From: an uncultured Eubacterium sp.
GTDB lineage: Bacteria; Bacillota; Clostridia; Oscillospirales; Acutalibacteraceae
Assembly (NCBI GenBank): GCA_905233545.1
Contig: CAJOEV010000032.1
Coordinates: forward strand, 1-34,720
Direction: 5' to 3'
Length of the DNA: 34,720 nucleotides
The notes under the pieces are model-generated. The model saw only the letters and a program-made list of their open reading frames with translations, was not told the origin of the DNA and searched no databases. Position numbers and translations under genes: made by a program. This document shows, piece after piece, positions 29,564 through 34,720 of this stretch; position 1 is the first letter of the stretch; the number at the start of each line of letters is the position of its first letter.

Positions 29564-31060
29564 ATGAAAAGAATACTTAAATCAATAACTTGCATAACCC
29601 TTGCAGTGCTTATGGCATTTTCAAGTGCTTTTGTTGCATTTGCAAAGGAAAAGGTTACCCCTGTTATTCTTGTTCACGGACTCGGTGCAAACCCTGTTTA
29701 TGAGAATATCGGAACTGAGGACCAGAAAGAAATTGCAAACCTCGGTCTTGGAGATGACCTTGTTTCAACAATTCTCGGAAATGATGAACTCATCAGCCAG
29801 GTTATCAAAATGGTTGAGCCCAAAAGAAAGGTCAGCGATAAAAAGCTTATTAATGCGCTTGCAGACCTTGTTAAGGATTCAAACATTAACTGCACGGCAA
29901 ACGGAAATGTCAAAAAGGGTCAGGGCGTTATAAACTATTGGAAAGCTCCTCTTTCAAAGCACAGAAGCTACTATAAGGATGCTTCTGTTGCAGAGAGTGC
30001 AATTGCGCGTCAGCTTTGCAGAGAGGTTGGAGCAAAGAATGTTTACTGCTTCAACTATGACTGGCGTCAGGATATCTGCAAAACTGCAAAAGACCTCAGA
30101 GAATATGTTAAAATCATAAAGAAAAAGACAGGCAGCAAGAAGGTTTCCCTCGTTGGATGTTCTCTCGGCGGAGCAGTTCTTTCGGCTTATATGGATGCAT
30201 ACAAGTCAAAGAAGGATGTTAAGCGCTATGTTTTCGTTAACCCTGCAATTATGGGTGTTGACGTTGCAAGAGCATTTGCGCTTGATATGTCATTCAGCAA
30301 GAAATCAATTGTTAACTATCTCAAATGTATGGAAACTGCATACAGCAACGGTGATTCAGTTGCTCTCTTCCGTTTGATATACGCTCTGGGTGATGTTAAA
30401 ATCGGATATGCAGCAAGCTATCTTAACGGATTTGTTAAGAACAAGAAGAATGTCAAAGCGCTTTTCACAAAGGTTGTAAAGCCCTGGATTGGCAATATTC
30501 CCTCACTTTGGGAGTGCATTCCCTACAGCAGTTATAACAAAGCTGTCAAGGAAATGAGCAAGATGGGCGTTCTCGACAAGAAGAGCGGAGTTTATAAGAA
30601 GATTAAGAAATACCACGGCGTTCAGGGAAGAATCAAGAAGAATTTAAAGGCTGTAAAGAAGAACGGCGCTTCTGTTGCAATTATCGCTTCCTACGGAACA
30701 ATGGGTATTCCTGCAACTTCAAAGAAAAACAATCAGACCGATGTTCTTATTGACACAAAATATGCTTCTGCAGGCGCAACTGTTGCAAGCTACGGCAATG
30801 TTCTTAAGAAGAAGCACCAGAAGGGTAAGTTTGCTTCTCCCGATAAGGTTATCAATGCAAAGACCTGTGCGCTTCCCAAGAACACATGGTTCCTTAAGGA
30901 TGTTCAGCATATGCGCTTTAAGTATAATTCAGATGCAACCAAGCTTGTTGCAAGACTTGCAACGGGCAAGGTTAAGAGCAATATTTATTCGGTTAAGAAA
31001 AAATACGGAATTTCACAGTTTGCAAAAGAGAATAAAGACAGCAAACTTGAAAATATTTAA
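29564..31060 (+). CDS. Secreted LCAT-type lipase/acyltransferase
   Basis: 498-residue alpha/beta-hydrolase with a Sec signal (residues 1-27, cleavage after AFA). The oxyanion segment VHGLGAN (37-43), FNYDWRQD (163-170, the LCAT/PDAT family signature) and VGCSLGGAV with nucleophile Ser200 are clear. Catalytic His449 in DVQHMRF and an Asp near 393-397 complete the triad. The protein is rich in Lys, which fits a secreted basic enzyme near the wall. Family members hydrolyse or transfer acyl chains from phospholipids or triacylglycerols; the substrate is not known. GGAGG lies before the ATG and a strong terminator follows. Confidence 0.82.
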   Translation: MKRILKSITCITLAVLMAFSSAFVAFAKEKVTPVILVHGLGANPVYENIGTEDQKEIANLGLGDDLVSTILGNDELISQVIKMVEPKRKVSDKKLINALADLVKDSNINCTANGNVKKGQGVINYWKAPLSKHRSYYKDASVAESAIARQLCREVGAKNVYCFNYDWRQDICKTAKDLREYVKIIKKKTGSKKVSLVGCSLGGAVLSAYMDAYKSKKDVKRYVFVNPAIMGVDVARAFALDMSFSKKSIVNYLKCMETAYSNGDSVALFRLIYALGDVKIGYAASYLNGFVKNKKNVKALFTKVVKPWIGNIPSLWECIPYSSYNKAVKEMSKMGVLDKKSGVYKKIKKYHGVQGRIKKNLKAVKKNGASVAIIASYGTMGIPATSKKNNQTDVLIDTKYASAGATVASYGNVLKKKHQKGKFASPDKVINAKTCALPKNTWFLKDVQHMRFKYNSDATKLVARLATGKVKSNIYSVKKKYGISQFAKENKDSKLENI

Positions 31061-31066
31061 ACACTG

Positions 31067-31089
31067 AAAAAGCCCTTCGGGGCTTTTTT
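31067..31089 (+). terminator. Intrinsic terminator after the lipase gene
   Basis: AAAAAGCCC-TTCG-GGGCTTTTTT (31067-31089), a perfect stem with a UUCG tetraloop. Confidence 0.92.
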
Positions 31090-31124
31090 AGTTTATGGTG
31101 TAGAGGATATTGCCAATCGGTGAT

Positions 31125-31185
31125 TTGAATAATAATATTCAAGATTGTTAAAAAAATAACAGCACATTTCACAAAATGCATTTTG
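31125..31185 (+). promoter_or_regulatory. Two palindromes upstream of the glnA promoter
   Basis: TTGAATA-4-TATTCAA (31125-31142) and the perfect 14-bp palindrome CAAAATGCATTTTG (31172-31185). The second ends four bases before the -35 box, a usual position for an activator or repressor site. Neither resembles the GlnR box (TGTNA-N7-TNACA). The other bases of 31090-31189 are AT-rich without further signals. Confidence 0.5.
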
Positions 31186-31189
31186 GATA

Positions 31190-31217
31190 TTGACAACTGC
31201 AGTGAATTTGGTGTAAC
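31190..31217 (+). promoter_or_regulatory. Promoter of the glnA transcription unit
   Basis: -35 TTGACA (31190-31195), a 16-bp spacer and -10 TGTAAC (31212-31217, four of six). The start would be near 31224, giving a leader of about 186 bases before the first ORF. Confidence 0.6.
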
Positions 31218-31227
31218 CTTTATTTGT

Positions 31228-31266
31228 AAGGCAAAGGGGTCTTTGAGGAAACTCGAAGACCCTTTT
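31228..31266 (+). terminator. glnA leader hairpin 1 (box plus terminator)
   Basis: The box CAAAGGGGTC (31232-31241) leads into an 11-bp stem (31237-31247 with 31252-31262), a GAAA loop and TTTT. It has all features of an intrinsic terminator but lies directly after the promoter, so it would stop glnA transcription unless prevented. Confidence 0.75.
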
Positions 31267-31285
31267 ATCTTTTGAATATTGCTAA

Positions 31286-31327
31286 AAGGCAACGGAGTCT
31301 TTGAGTTTAGCTCAAAGACTCTTTTTT
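31286..31327 (+). terminator. glnA leader hairpin 2 (box plus terminator)
   Basis: The box CAACGGAGTC (31290-31299) leads into GAGTCTTTGAG (31295-31305) paired perfectly with CTCAAAGACTC (31311-31321), loop TTTAG, then TTTTTT. This is the strongest of the three leader terminators. Confidence 0.8.
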
Positions 31328-31346
31328 AGTAATAAACATATTATAT

Positions 31347-31388
31347 AGGACAATGGCGTCTTTTGTGATTTGCACAAAAGGCGCCTTT
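31347..31388 (+). terminator. glnA leader hairpin 3 (box plus hairpin)
   Basis: The box CAATGGCGTC (31351-31360) leads into a 13-bp stem with one wobble (31355-31367 with 31373-31385) and an ATTTG loop. The T tract is short (TTTG, then TTTT after 31391). The hairpin ends about 12 bases before the AGGAGG of the small ORF, so it could also affect translation. Confidence 0.65.
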
Positions 31389-31409
31389 GCCGTTTTAGGA
31401 GGTGTTTGA

Positions 31410-31577
31410 ATGAACAGCGACAAAAACGTTAATATGGCTGCAAGAATTAATTTCGACGGCGAGCCGCAGTTTGAGTTATCCGAGCACATTCACAAAAGCA
31501 AAAAATACCGCGATGCGTTCTACGGAAATGACACTTGGGATAATGAATACTGTTTAAACACAACTGCCTGGGACTGA
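31410..31577 (+). CDS. 55-residue protein ahead of glnA
   Basis: A small open frame with a full ribosome site (AGGAGG seven bases before the ATG). It is soluble and mixed in charge: it starts MNSDKNVNMAARINFDGEP, has a central FELSEHIHKSKKYRDAFYG, and ends in an acidic and aromatic stretch with two Trp (TWDN, TAWD). I do not recognise a family. It lies between the terminator hairpins and glnA, 33 bases before it, and must be on the same transcript. By analogy with small proteins that bind glutamine synthetase in cyanobacteria and archaea, it may modulate GlnA; this is inference only. Confidence 0.6.
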   Translation: MNSDKNVNMAARINFDGEPQFELSEHIHKSKKYRDAFYGNDTWDNEYCLNTTAWD

Positions 31578-31610
31578 AAAACAAAGTAATAATTTTTAGG
31601 AGGATATAAA

Positions 31611-32819
31611 ATGAGTATTACAAAGGAACAAATTTTAAAGGAAGCAAAGGAAAACAATGTCGAATTCGTAAGATTGCAGTTCACCGATTTATTCGGAAGA
31701 ATGAAGAATGTTGCAATCACACTTTCACAGCTTGAAAAAGCACTTGATAATGACTGTATGTTCGACGGCTCATCAATTGACGGATTTGTTCGTATAGATG
31801 AAAGCGACATGTATCTTCATCCCGATTATGATACATGGGCAATCGTACCCTGGAGAAAGCATCAGCAAATCCAGACGGGCAGACTTATCTGTTCTGTATA
31901 TAAAGCTGATAACAAAACACCTTTTGAGGGCGACCCGAGAAATGCGCTCATCAAGGTTATGGAAGAAGCAAAGGAACTCGGCTATGGTTTTAACGTAGGC
32001 CCCGAATGTGAATTCTTCCTCTTCAAGCTTGATGAGGACGGAAATCCGACAACCGAAACCTGTGACGAAGCAGGTTACTTTGACCTTAATCCGATTGACC
32101 ACGGCGAAAACTGCAGAAGAGATATCTGCTTAGCGCTTGAGAATATGGGCTACACAATTGAGGCATCACACCATGAGGTTGCCGAAGGTCAGCACGAAAT
32201 CGACTTCCAGTTCGGTGACGGACTTCTCACAGCGGACAGAGTTATGACCTTCAAGCATGTTGTTAAGACCTATGCAACAAAGCATGGCCTTCACGCAACA
32301 TTTATGCCGAAGCCGATTTACGGTATTAACGGAAGCGGTATGCATACAAATATGAGTCTTTATAACATCGAAACGGGCGCAAATGTTTTTGATGACCCGA
32401 ACGGTGAACTTGGACTTTCAAAAGAGGCATATTCATTCATCGCAGGTATTATGGAGCATATCAAGGGTATTGCGGTATTTTCAAACCCGACAGTCAACTC
32501 ATATAAAAGACTTGTTCCCGGTTATGAGGCTCCGAGCTATCTTGTATGGAGCACTTCAAACCGTTCCTGCCTTGTAAGAATTCCCGCAAGCAGAGGAAAG
32601 GGCACAAGAATTGAGCTTCGCTGTCCCGACCCGACCTGCAACCCCTATCTTGAAATGGCGCTCTGCCTTGCTGCAGGACTTGACGGAATTAAAAGAGGTC
32701 TTGTTCCAAATCCTTCATACGATGAGAACGTTTTTGTTCTTGTCGACAGGGCATTTCGTGTTGTTAAGTGCAACACCTTCGATAACGTTTTTGTCGCCGG
32801 GCTCAATCGTGACGTTTAA
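31611..32819 (+). CDS. glnA: Glutamine synthetase type I, 3' end replaced
   Basis: Forms glutamine from glutamate, ammonia and ATP. Residues 1 to about 375 match the short GSI-alpha type: [75 protein letters not shown] and [19 protein letters not shown]. The family is about 440 residues long, but homology stops at SYDENVF (about 32735). The frame then reads by chance into antisense phage-like sequence and ends at 32819, so about 65 native residues including the C-terminal helices are missing. AGGAGG precedes the ATG. The full gene probably exists in the organism; the break is a recombination or assembly junction. Confidence 0.93.
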
Positions 32820-32938
32820 TCGGTCGTCGACGTCCATCCCCAAGCCTTCACCAACTTTGATAACGCCGAGGTCGTATTCGGTTGCTATCGGCAGGTTGTC
32901 TCTCGAATCCGCGATTTTCGCGTCAATATCGGCGTCCA
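32715..32938 (-). CDS. Phage tail-fibre-like protein fragment
   Basis: Starts [15 protein letters not shown] with AAGGA four bases before the ATG, then [19 protein letters not shown] and [18 protein letters not shown], a repeat type common in tail fibres and baseplate proteins of phages (ATxxxLGVVKVGxGL and an IexVxVNG-like segment). Homology-like sequence ends at VDKNKNV near 32735, the junction with glnA; the stop at 32715 is therefore chance. It lies eight bases after the preceding phage gene, in normal phage gene order. Confidence 0.55.
32727..32740. other. Junction between glnA and phage-like sequence
   Basis: On the plus strand glnA homology ends at codons for DENVF; on the minus strand the tail-fibre pattern ends at NKNV. 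Both readings share the short sequence AACGTTTTTGTT, a likely point of microhomology joining. Codon use and base composition change here, with many CG dinucleotides to the right. Confidence 0.6.
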
Positions 32939-32946
32939 TTAATTCC

Positions 32947-33390
32947 TTAAAAGTTGAAAAGGTTGCTGATGTCAGACCAATCGATTGTCTCTTTTTCATT
33001 GATGTAATCGGACAGGTCAAGCTCAGCGTAGTTGTCACTGTTGATATATTGCTCCACGCCGTCGATTAAAATGCCTTGAATGCCCGCTTGCACGCCGCCC
33101 GCAGTTGTCTCGCAACACGAACCACAAAGCTTGGAGCCGCAAGAAAACTTAAAGTCGTTCGCGTCGCAGGAATTGACGCCCTCAGTGATGACGCGTGCTT
33201 TGGCGTTCCCGTCGATACAGCGCACGTAAAAAGGCTCGTTGAAGAAATAATTTTGGTGCGGCAGAATCGGAATCCCGCTGTCAGGCTCGTCCGTCGTCAA
33301 CACTTCAAGGGTAAACGGGCTCAGGTTTTGGATTATGCCCGTCGGCTCGTCAATTCACACGAAATCTTTTTTCAAGTGCAGATATTGCAA
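32947..33390 (-). CDS. Phage structural-type protein with an in-frame stop
   Basis: From the TTG at 33390, six bases after GGGAGGTGA, the frame reads MQYLHLKKDFV, a TGA stop (33355-33357, codon 12), then IDEPTGIIQNLSPFTLEVL and on to the stop at 32947, giving 147 codons. Without the stop the protein is continuous and plausible; an internal start at 33303 would give 118 residues but has no ribosome site. It has a cysteine-rich stretch (CGSKLCGSCC). I do not recognise a family; the neighbours suggest a virion or tail accessory protein. Confidence 0.45.
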
Positions 33391-33412
33391 GGTCGCTCAC
33401 CTCCCGTCCAAT

Positions 33413-33434
33413 AAAAAAAGCCCCTGCGCGGCTT
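33413..33434 (-). terminator. Possible terminator in the phage-like segment
   Basis: Minus strand: AAGCC-GCGCAGG-GGCTT followed by TTTTT, directly after the stop of the small ORF at 33433. The stem is only five bases, so it is weak. Confidence 0.45.
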
Positions 33435-33526
33435 ACCAAATGATGTAGTCTTCCTCTTTCGGCGGCTCGAAGTCGTCGCCTTTGTCGTTGGTCAATGCAA
33501 CGATACTCCGTTTCAGTGCCTACCAT
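33433..33526 (-). pseudogene. Small phage ORF with a 1-nt frameshift
   Basis: The ATG at 33526 begins MVGTETEY, and the next frame continues ALTNDKGDDFEPPKEEDYIIW to TAA at 33433. Removing one base near 33500 joins them into a 30-residue acidic protein. The ATG overlaps the TAG that would end the upstream tail protein in its corrected frame, as is common in tail gene cassettes. Confidence 0.4.
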
Positions 33527-34720
33527 GTAAGGGAAAGATTGTAATCTGCTTTGGATAATACATTGTTAAATCCATTGAATATTTCCCTTGCAGGTATAAT
33601 TTCCAATAGTTGCCATACCCTGCGCAAACAATCGCGACATGGATACGCTTTGCATCGTCGGTTTCGAGAACTGTTTCAAAACCTGTGGCATAGGTGGGAA
33701 TATGTGCTGATGTAAGCGTAGTGACGCTGGTAGATTTGAGAACGGCTATCCCTGTATTGTATACTCCTAAAAAACAGTATGGGTAGCTAGCGGTCTCAGT
33801 GCTCTTACGTCTGTATATTTTAAGTATCGGGCGCAGAATATTCCCTTCGCTAACCACATTGGTTGAATCATTAGAATTAGTTGCATTCCAAGAAAGCCAA
33901 AAATCTATAGTGAACTTTGATAAGGCGGTTCCTGTGCCTATCTCCCATCCAGAGGTTGCTGAAATCGTGTTGGTTAGTGCCGTGTTTAAATTGCGCAGGG
34001 CGTAGACACCGTGGTCGGTTTTTTCAACGACAGGTGCAGGTACAGTAGTCGTCCAGTTGCGGTGATATATATCGCCCGAAAAGTTTGGTCGCCACAACCA
34101 ATAGCTGTAAAGACCGTCAGTCGAGGGCCCCTTGTAGGCAATCATGGCGTAGTTGTATCCGAAATCAAAAGCAAACGAGGCACTGCCTTTAACCCATTTA
34201 CGTTTAACCCAAAGCGTCGGGTATTCATCGTCTTCAAGCGTATACCAAAGCCCGCCGTCGATTTCGGAAGGCACTGTGCTCAGATAATAAATCTTGGGTT
34301 CAATCGTGCCCGTCGTCGAGTGGGAAGTATTTACTGTTGTCTCTGTAAAAATGTCGGCTTTGAAAATGTACTCGTAATCGTTATGGCGGAGCCGCAAGCA
34401 AGGTGCAACTAAAGATTCTTCGTCGCCAACGTCCATCCAAAGCATTCCTTGCTGATTCGGCGGGTAGGTAATTGCCTCAACGTTTACGCCGTTCAAACTG
34501 CCGCCGCCTACAATGACATTGAGCGATTCGGTCGGGAACCTAGCCCAATAACCGTCGCCGCGCAGAAACTTGTTTTCTTCGCCCGCATTGGGAACCGGAA
34601 CTATTCCCGATTTGCCGTCATCATCCGCAGTTGCGCCAATGAAAAAGCTTGCTGCATTCAAGACGCCTTCCTTGGTTATCGAAAGACCCGAACCGACAAT
34701 GACGCCGCCGAGTTTTTCGG
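33513..34720 (-). CDS. Phage tail-fibre-like protein with lectin-like C-terminus, 5' partial
   Basis: The frame is open to the window edge (EKLGGVIVGSGLSITKEGVLN upstream of the first possible TTG start), so the N-terminus is missing. FFIGATADDDGKSGIVPVPN and NKFLRGDGYWARF match the repeated 'GATxxxxGxxGLVPxP...FLxGDGxW' segment of phage tail fibres. The C-terminal 150 residues look like a concanavalin/laminin-G-type beta-sandwich (FTIDFWLSWNAT, RIHVAIVCAG, YWKLYLQG). A missing G near 33585-33587 would change the end from GKYSMDLTM to GEIFNGFNNVLSKADYNLSLTW-type (stop at 33520), which looks more natural. Likely binds surface glycans of the host. Confidence 0.6.
   Translation of the reverse strand, partial: EKLGGVIVGSGLSITKEGVLNAASFFIGATADDDGKSGIVPVPNAGEENKFLRGDGYWARFPTESLNVIVGGGSLNGVNVEAITYPPNQQGMLWMDVGDEESLVAPCLRLRHNDYEYIFKADIFTETTVNTSHSTTGTIEPKIYYLSTVPSEIDGGLWYTLEDDEYPTLWVKRKWVKGSASFAFDFGYNYAMIAYKGPSTDGLYSYWLWRPNFSGDIYHRNWTTTVPAPVVEKTDHGVYALRNLNTALTNTISATSGWEIGTGTALSKFTIDFWLSWNATNSNDSTNVVSEGNILRPILKIYRRKSTETASYPYCFLGVYNTGIAVLKSTSVTTLTSAHIPTYATGFETVLETDDAKRIHVAIVCAGYGNYWKLYLQGKYSMDLTMYYPKQITIFPLHGRH

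Follow-up and report, generated by a model that had tools for sequence, protein, structure and literature searches.

What reads the sequence box that recurs three times in front of the glutamine synthetase gene glnA of an uncultured Eubacterium sp. (Acutalibacteraceae)? The window, that is, the whole stretch of 34,720 nt analysed here, contains upstream of this gene a leader in which three hairpins follow each other at a spacing of about 60 nt (Table 1). An earlier note on this DNA had taken them for an undescribed serial attenuator in which a protein or small RNA recognises the box, and had set ANTAR antiterminators aside because the loops seemed to lack the AxxGxx hexaloop. We consider it very probable that the leader is a serial transcription attenuator of precisely the ANTAR type, predicted from its sequence to consist of single-hexaloop units without a P1 hairpin. 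Serial attenuation of a nitrogen gene by a factor that probably recognises the box is thereby retained; the dismissal of ANTAR is not, in view of a hexaloop in a competing fold, one ANTAR gene in the genome and a distribution of the units that tracks that of ANTAR genes.

Table 1. Promoter, units and genes of the glnA leader region (positions of the window)
Feature	Position	Strand	Basis and remarks
Sigma-70-type promoter TTGACA-N18-TAACCT	31190..31219	+	Direct reading; TTGACA at 31190, TAACCT at 31214
Unit 1 antiterminator hairpin AAGGC-[AAAGGG]-GTCTT	31228..31243	+	5 bp, about -3.0 kcal/mol
Unit 1 intrinsic terminator	31233..31275	+	Stem 31233-31266 and T-rich tail; unit MFE -25.4 kcal/mol
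Unit 2 antiterminator hairpin AAAGGC-[AACGGA]-GTCTTT	31285..31302	+	6 bp
Unit 2 intrinsic terminator	31294..31330	+	Stem 31294-31322 and TTTTTT; -18.4 kcal/mol
Unit 3 antiterminator hairpin AGGAC-[AATGGC]-GTCTT	31347..31362	+	5 bp
Unit 3 terminator-like hairpin	31351..31396 (hairpin about 31351-31389)	+	-26.4 kcal/mol
Shine-Dalgarno sequence AGGAGGTG	31397-31404	+	Direct reading
Small ORF, 55 aa	31410-31577	+	Good ribosome-binding site; between leader and glnA
glnA, type I glutamine synthetase, shortened	31611..32741 (ORF to 32819)	+	PF00120/PF03951, TIGR00653

The boxes CAAAGGGGTC, CAACGGAGTC and CAATGGCGTC start exactly where they had been reported, at 31232, 31290 and 31351, respectively. 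A terminator scan of positions 30500-32000 returned four terminator-like sites against a shuffle mean of 1.2; two of the four, at 31233-31266 and 31294-31322, lie on the plus strand in the leader, in agreement with the claim that two of the three hairpins are intrinsic terminators. The hairpin of unit 3 was absent from the output for this region. Its fold is equally strong, but it is followed by a weak T-tract, GCCGTTTT, directly 5' of the Shine-Dalgarno sequence. The leader as a whole has a minimum free energy of -85.8 kcal/mol compared with -49.1 kcal/mol (sd 4.34) over 200 shuffles (z = -8.46), none of which reached its fold energy. The core of the box, AANGGNGTCTTT, occurs eight times in the 2.23 Mb genome and a reversed control pattern six times, and four of the eight copies fall into two leaders, three before glnA and one before gdhA. 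Single boxes are thus not uncommon, whereas chance does not explain their clustering. Further upstream, a hairpin with a T-run, AAAAAGCCC-TTCG-GGGCTTTTTT, was seen by eye at 31067-31089, 3' of an alpha/beta hydrolase-like gene. It probably ends that gene, which would make the glnA leader a separate transcription unit.

Contrary to the earlier reading of the loops, the box itself is an AxxGxx hexaloop, located not in the terminator loop but in an alternative fold of each unit (AAAGGG, AACGGA and AATGGC in units 1, 2 and 3). Since the stem of the hexaloop borrows the 5' arm of the terminator, the two folds are mutually exclusive. The hexaloop hairpins reach about -3 to -5 kcal/mol, compared with -18 to -26 kcal/mol for the full units. 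In truncated-leader folding, the unit 1 hexaloop is the best fold for an RNA from the inferred transcription start to 31245, is beaten by another small fold when the RNA ends at 31250 and likewise loses to another fold when about 20 nt of extra upstream sequence are included. For units 2 and 3 the hexaloop is the minimum free energy structure of the truncated leader, with 51 and 7 of 200 shuffles, respectively, folding equally well; of the two units in the truncated gdhA leader, the first has it as its best fold and the second does not. When the P2 hairpin of ANTAR targets is taken as a stem of 3 bp or more that closes a hexaloop with A1 and G4, all three units of the glnA leader have it. Its overlap with an intrinsic terminator is seen in units 1 and 2, unit 3 having the weak T-tract. 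Judged from the sequence, the hexaloop/terminator geometry of the glnA units is that of an ANTAR P2 antiterminator.

If the hexaloop hairpin forms, its pairs should be conserved as pairs. Across a first set of 24 units both the terminator pairs and the hexaloop-stem pairs covary, but these units had been chosen for having 4 bp or more in the stem and a C-G closing pair, so that the set leans towards pairing. Because of this bias, the count was replaced by one on sequences aligned with the model R1, which was built on terminator pairs only, without the hexaloop pairs and with the 5' flank kept as sequence. This run comprised 98 matches from 44 sources, 95 of them distinct, ordinary terminators included. 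In the hexaloop stem 86.9% of the cells are paired and 34 cells show a two-sided change, values which none of 500 shuffles reached, and slid registers of the same alignment pair in 40-61% of the cells. The main two-sided swap is from GC (72) to AU (17). The number of pairs with a two-sided change (3) and the number of further pair types (10) are unexceptional, being reached by 436 and 44 of 500 shuffles, respectively. The 5' and 3' flanks change in step, as in AAGGC/GTCTT, GAAC/GTTC and GGAC/GTCT.

The motif C-NNNGNN-G is in register in 84 of the 95 distinct matches. Within these 84, loop A2 is present in all and the T after the closing pair in 83, both positions lying outside the filter; the 3' side opposite them is variable (T 74, C 9 and G 1 opposite A2; A 50, G 33 and T 1 opposite the T). 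Loop G5 is found in 83 of the 84 and its terminator partner is likewise fixed. Loop positions 3 and 6 are more variable than their 3' partners, which is expected for AxxGxx and is not an additional constraint. Summed over 13 pairs, the entropy is 9.2 bits on the 5' side and 13.1 bits on the 3' side. Some congeners have G at loop position 1. This choice between A and G fits the finding that the ANTAR domain contacts G4 and not A1 (PMC8934654).

The strong conservation of the box could also mean that it is read linearly, or within the terminator, by some other protein or a small RNA, the hexaloop being coincidental. Such linear reading need not make the 5' flank outside the box co-vary with the 3' flank, as it does, nor does it go well with the freedom of loop positions 3 and 6 to vary or with units that track ANTAR genes. 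We regard it as distinctly improbable.

R1 matches were found in 76 of 80 congener genomes (E up to 0.01), in 67 of 197 genomes of the order (E 0.003) and in 39 of 291 genomes of the class (E 0.0003). Part of these matches were read, and some of them, including some single matches in congeners, are ordinary terminators. The assumption that every R1 match is a unit was rejected on account of ordinary terminators behind ORFs (L097-L099, L104, L112, L118, L119). Most of the ordinary terminators read lack a C-G-closed hexaloop with G4; the exceptions are L104, whose hexaloop has a stem of 3 bp on each strand, and L119, in which the stem is 1 bp. An ANTAR gene is present in 36 of the 39 R1-positive genomes of the class versus 109 of the 252 others (p = 2e-9, ignoring phylogeny), and in 57 of 67 versus 57 of 130 genomes in the order (p = 1e-8, again ignoring phylogeny). 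The association is not strict in either direction: 109 of the 145 ANTAR-bearing genomes of the class have no R1 match at the threshold used, and ten R1-positive genomes of the order have no ANTAR gene, with matches without a loop in three of them (G155, G171, G269). The congeners for which no R1 match was obtained are G011, G016, G080 and G082; in G011 and G016, whose genomes are 87% and 73% complete, the ANTAR match is absent too.

A strict DNA pattern was found at no fewer than 118 loci in public records. The units recovered in this way, 120 among the matches listed, carry G4 by design of the pattern. Carriers of the pattern include the cultured Merdimmobilis hominis An559 and Lachnospiraceae bacterium 28-4 and A4. 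Record titles, among the 80 listed, name Clostridia or Firmicutes groups with one exception. The exceptional record, labelled Candidatus Gastranaerophilales and thus outside the Clostridia, holds an exact match of the pattern (L230).

The promoter of the glnA leader matches 9 of 12 consensus bases and has a weak -10 box, from whose end 13 nt lead to the first base of the unit 1 hexaloop. Transcription generally starts about 7 nt after a -10 box, which places +1 presumably near 31226 and leaves about 2 nt to the hairpin of unit 1. In many relatives a near-perfect promoter stands at a similar distance. Among the pattern-found units listed, 107 of 120 are preceded by a promoter that matches the consensus at 10 or more of 12 bases and whose -10 box ends 13-19 nt before loop position 1, whereas shuffled flanks give such a placement in 1.08 of 119. 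The model-found set contains 31 perfect promoters (12 of 12) at 13-20 nt, with 136 loop-bearing units out of 155 examined; this analysis omits L125, the window itself, and L145, and L070, L073, L074 and L077 were scored as having no hexaloop, their position being misassigned near contig ends. With the -10 box so close to the hexaloop, the RNA should begin a few nucleotides before the hairpin.

There is accordingly little space for a second hairpin. P1-like hairpins upstream were counted in 5 of 128 units against 11.8 expected from shuffles, and in 5 of the 120 pattern-found units listed against 12.8 expected, both counts having been made without a dual-hairpin positive control. P1 hairpins upstream of the units were therefore rejected, being rarer than in shuffles and having no room after the inferred +1. 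Lacking P1, the leaders are not members by the dual-hairpin definition of 2012, and they qualify by the minimal single-hexaloop motif of 2022. It speaks against our reading that eutP requires P1 in vivo (PMC3369931).

The same short distance bears on a metabolite riboswitch or a PyrR-type attenuator as the explanation of the leader. A covariance search with Rfam 15 found no family at gathering score in the window; below threshold, a PyrR match extends over units 1 and 2 with 32.4 bits (E = 0.013), short of the gathering score of 54. About 2 nt between the inferred +1 and the first hairpin leave no room for a ligand domain, and the genes downstream are not a pyrimidine operon, so that this explanation has next to no probability. 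Strong terminators such as these might, furthermore, be constitutive and merely damp or insulate glnA. First units stand, however, directly 3' of near-consensus promoters and 5' of nitrogen genes, the ordinary terminators among the model matches mostly lack the C-G-closed G4 hexaloop, and the pattern recurs across Clostridia. Constitutive tandem terminators therefore appear extremely improbable to us.

A covariance search in relatives had been proposed as a check, and it did reveal units before glnA and amtB, including the triple arrangement upstream of glnA. In a first sample of 24 glnA loci of the genus, one per genome, a script scored three loci as having three units, 14 as having one and seven as having none (L019, L021, L022, L023, L035, L036, L039; L035 is cut by a contig end). 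Altogether, three units before glnA were found in 11 genomes including this one (the window, L016, L017, L080-L086, L088), and two units, at the threshold of the model, in four (L087, L089, L093, L103). Since the glnA genes of the other 14 multi-unit genomes are 91-94% identical to the one studied here, the three-in-series arrangement has been seen in one subclade. By sequence comparison the unit itself is more widespread than this arrangement. Single units mostly read AAGAAC-[RANGGN]-GTTC.

These numbers bear on a variant of the ANTAR reading, in which the protein acts across units, the hexaloop of one unit serving as P1 of the next and the array being the working element. In published dual motifs two hexaloops are indeed needed, and in the pattern-found units listed a further box lies within 250 nt in 72 of 120 and a second hexaloop 40-150 nt downstream in 73 of 118. 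However, single units occur at 14 of the 24 congener glnA loci, and the three amtB leaders of the genus that were read (L106, L107, L110) have one unit each. The spacing of about 60 nt is, moreover, far above that of published linkers, which measure 5-12 nt in E. faecalis, where 14 nt impaired function (PMC3369931); for actinobacteria, 2-25 nt have been accepted. Action across units thus seems very doubtful, and units that would each work on their own remain our preferred interpretation.

Units are associated with a coherent set of genes. In this genome the gdhA leader has two units and the start of pyrG one weak R1 match (E = 0.0064). Targets within the genus are glnA, gdhA, asnA, an amtB-PII fusion, a gene for a class II glutamine amidotransferase and pyrG; in the order, the genes for type III glutamine synthetase (PF12437) and amtB are added. 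One of nine reference proteins is encoded in the same orientation, at most 2.6 kb downstream, for 100 of the 120 pattern-found units listed, namely type III glutamine synthetase (79), gdhA (10), other glutamine synthetases (4), pyrG (3), amtB (3) and asnA (1). Of the 20 listed units that lack a reference gene downstream, we read 13. They precede glmS in four cases (L180, L227, L231, L234), purF in three (L238, L275, L278), asnB in two (L184, L241) and carA (L224) and purC (L205) in one each; two have no clear target (L208, L248). These genes were named by NCBIfam, the partial L241 reaching the cut-off of TIGR01536 only. With the exception of purC, the targets all serve to produce, transport or consume ammonia, glutamate or glutamine. 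Going by gene context, the units before glmS, asnB, carA and purF hint at a regulon that would cover the spending of glutamine besides the uptake of ammonia.

Which protein might read the hexaloops? The sole ANTAR gene of the genome (G000:C31:141-296; PF03861, 48.8 bits at a cut-off of 27.3) is located directly 3' of a second glutamine synthetase gene, with gdhA in divergent orientation. The best structure matches of its product among PDB chains are 1s8n, a putative antiterminator that we take to be Rv1626, EutV (6wsh) and AmiR (1qo0). Five of the 11 contact residues of EutV are kept (K147, K149, E160, M172, N173); R142, R168, R175 and R177 are not conserved, K143 is replaced by R and Y164 by H (contact list from PMC8934654, with a numbering offset of two deduced from the alignment). 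Opposite D54 of EutV the alignment has an isoleucine (IIINAP versus MDIQMP), hence the phospho-acceptor aspartate is missing. A Pfam search with the protein returned the ANTAR domain only. The protein would appear to combine an ANTAR domain with a receiver-like one that lacks the phosphorylated aspartate. A published parallel to such a receiver is the pseudo-receiver of AmiR (PMC8934654). The 20 ANTAR proteins of congeners (L010:126-698, L149-L168) fall by eye into two groups, five resembling the one described here and 15 having a different N-terminal part.

In the mechanism that we propose, RNA polymerase would by default stop at the terminators of the leader. Triggered by nitrogen or glutamine status, the ANTAR protein would dimerise, and the dimer would hold each hexaloop hairpin on its emergence, whereby the terminators would be blocked and glnA transcribed. 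The hairpin so held would be a solitary P2 without P1, close to where the transcript begins. Three gates in series would make the response stricter than a single one. The same protein may co-regulate gdhA through its two units and possibly pyrG through its one weak unit. That sensing occurs by protein contact with the neighbouring glutamine synthetase is a guess. In a wider form, this P1-less switch, with one 5'-end hexaloop per terminator, would serve many Clostridia as a general means of controlling how ammonia is assimilated and glutamine used. How strictly a gene depends on the regulator would be set by its count of serial units (often one for amtB and pyrG, two for gdhA or asnA, up to three for glnA), and the readout would run via a pseudo-receiver ANTAR protein linked to glutamine synthetase and not via phosphorylation. 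This wider proposal could equally well prove right or wrong.

The leaders share with the eut leaders of E. faecalis (EutV), nasF (NasR) and amiE (AmiR) an AxxGxx hairpin at the base of a terminator and exclusive with it, the association with nitrogen genes and the presence of an ANTAR protein in the genome. They differ from them in the lack of P1, a hairpin only a few nucleotides from the inferred +1, up to three serial units and a RANGGN loop. The regulons predicted by Ramesh et al. 2012 (PMC3369931) likewise have several attenuators in one genome and in one transcription unit, with targets in glutamine and glutamate synthesis, PII and ammonium transporters; Desulfotomaculum acetoxidans has at least 13 ANTAR attenuators in six transcription units. 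In contrast to our search, that study uses a dual-hairpin model, and here pyrG and asnA and, within the class, glmS, purF, carA and asnB are found as well. Walshe et al. 2022 (PMC8934654) propose one hexaloop as the minimal ANTAR site. According to them, termination is prevented only if each hexaloop of the dual motif is contacted, whereas the present leaders would be natural attenuators with a single hexaloop for each terminator. An ANTAR-type regulator has also been suggested for ammonia assimilation in the case of clostridial NitR with its antisense RNA (ANTAR gene Clo1313_2030; PMC4676874); unlike here, the text seen of that paper does not describe an RNA target motif.

A description of single-hexaloop, 5'-terminal ANTAR leaders or of the box was not found in the open-access literature, and some of the leaders may stand in the supplementary hit lists of PMC3369931. 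As far as sequence comparison and this literature go, the single-hexaloop, often serial layout of ANTAR antitermination is new; ANTAR control of nitrogen genes is already known. The word "undescribed" in the earlier note can apply to that layout alone, as nitrogen control by ANTAR and multiple attenuators had both been published. The structural paper (PMC8934654) leaves open how far single hexaloops function. Since our leaders resemble natural single-hexaloop attenuators, this function becomes directly testable. Serial attenuation could likewise be tested on them, as their number of gates is naturally graded. A search signature of promoter, RANGGN hexaloop and terminator would, furthermore, reveal nitrogen and glutamine regulons in many uncultured Clostridia.

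As to the genes behind the leader, the homology of glnA to that of a relative ends abruptly near 32741 in the alignment, and the start of another contig (G000:C47:1-145) matches the 3' end of the relative's glnA. The tail of the window, 32741-34720, thus probably results from an assembly join or from an insertion; the GC content rises up to 0.51 at 33000-33499. A third glutamine synthetase gene of the genome is located on contig C55. The 55-aa ORF has no match in Pfam, NCBIfam or PHROG. Counting this genome, 19 of 80 congener genomes have one match each to it, and in the 12 contexts read it lies 3' of a hexaloop unit and 5' of glnA (six) or pyrG (six). The ORF is a candidate for a small protein acting on glutamine enzymes, and its nine aligned copies have EYC-x-NTT-x-WD in common.
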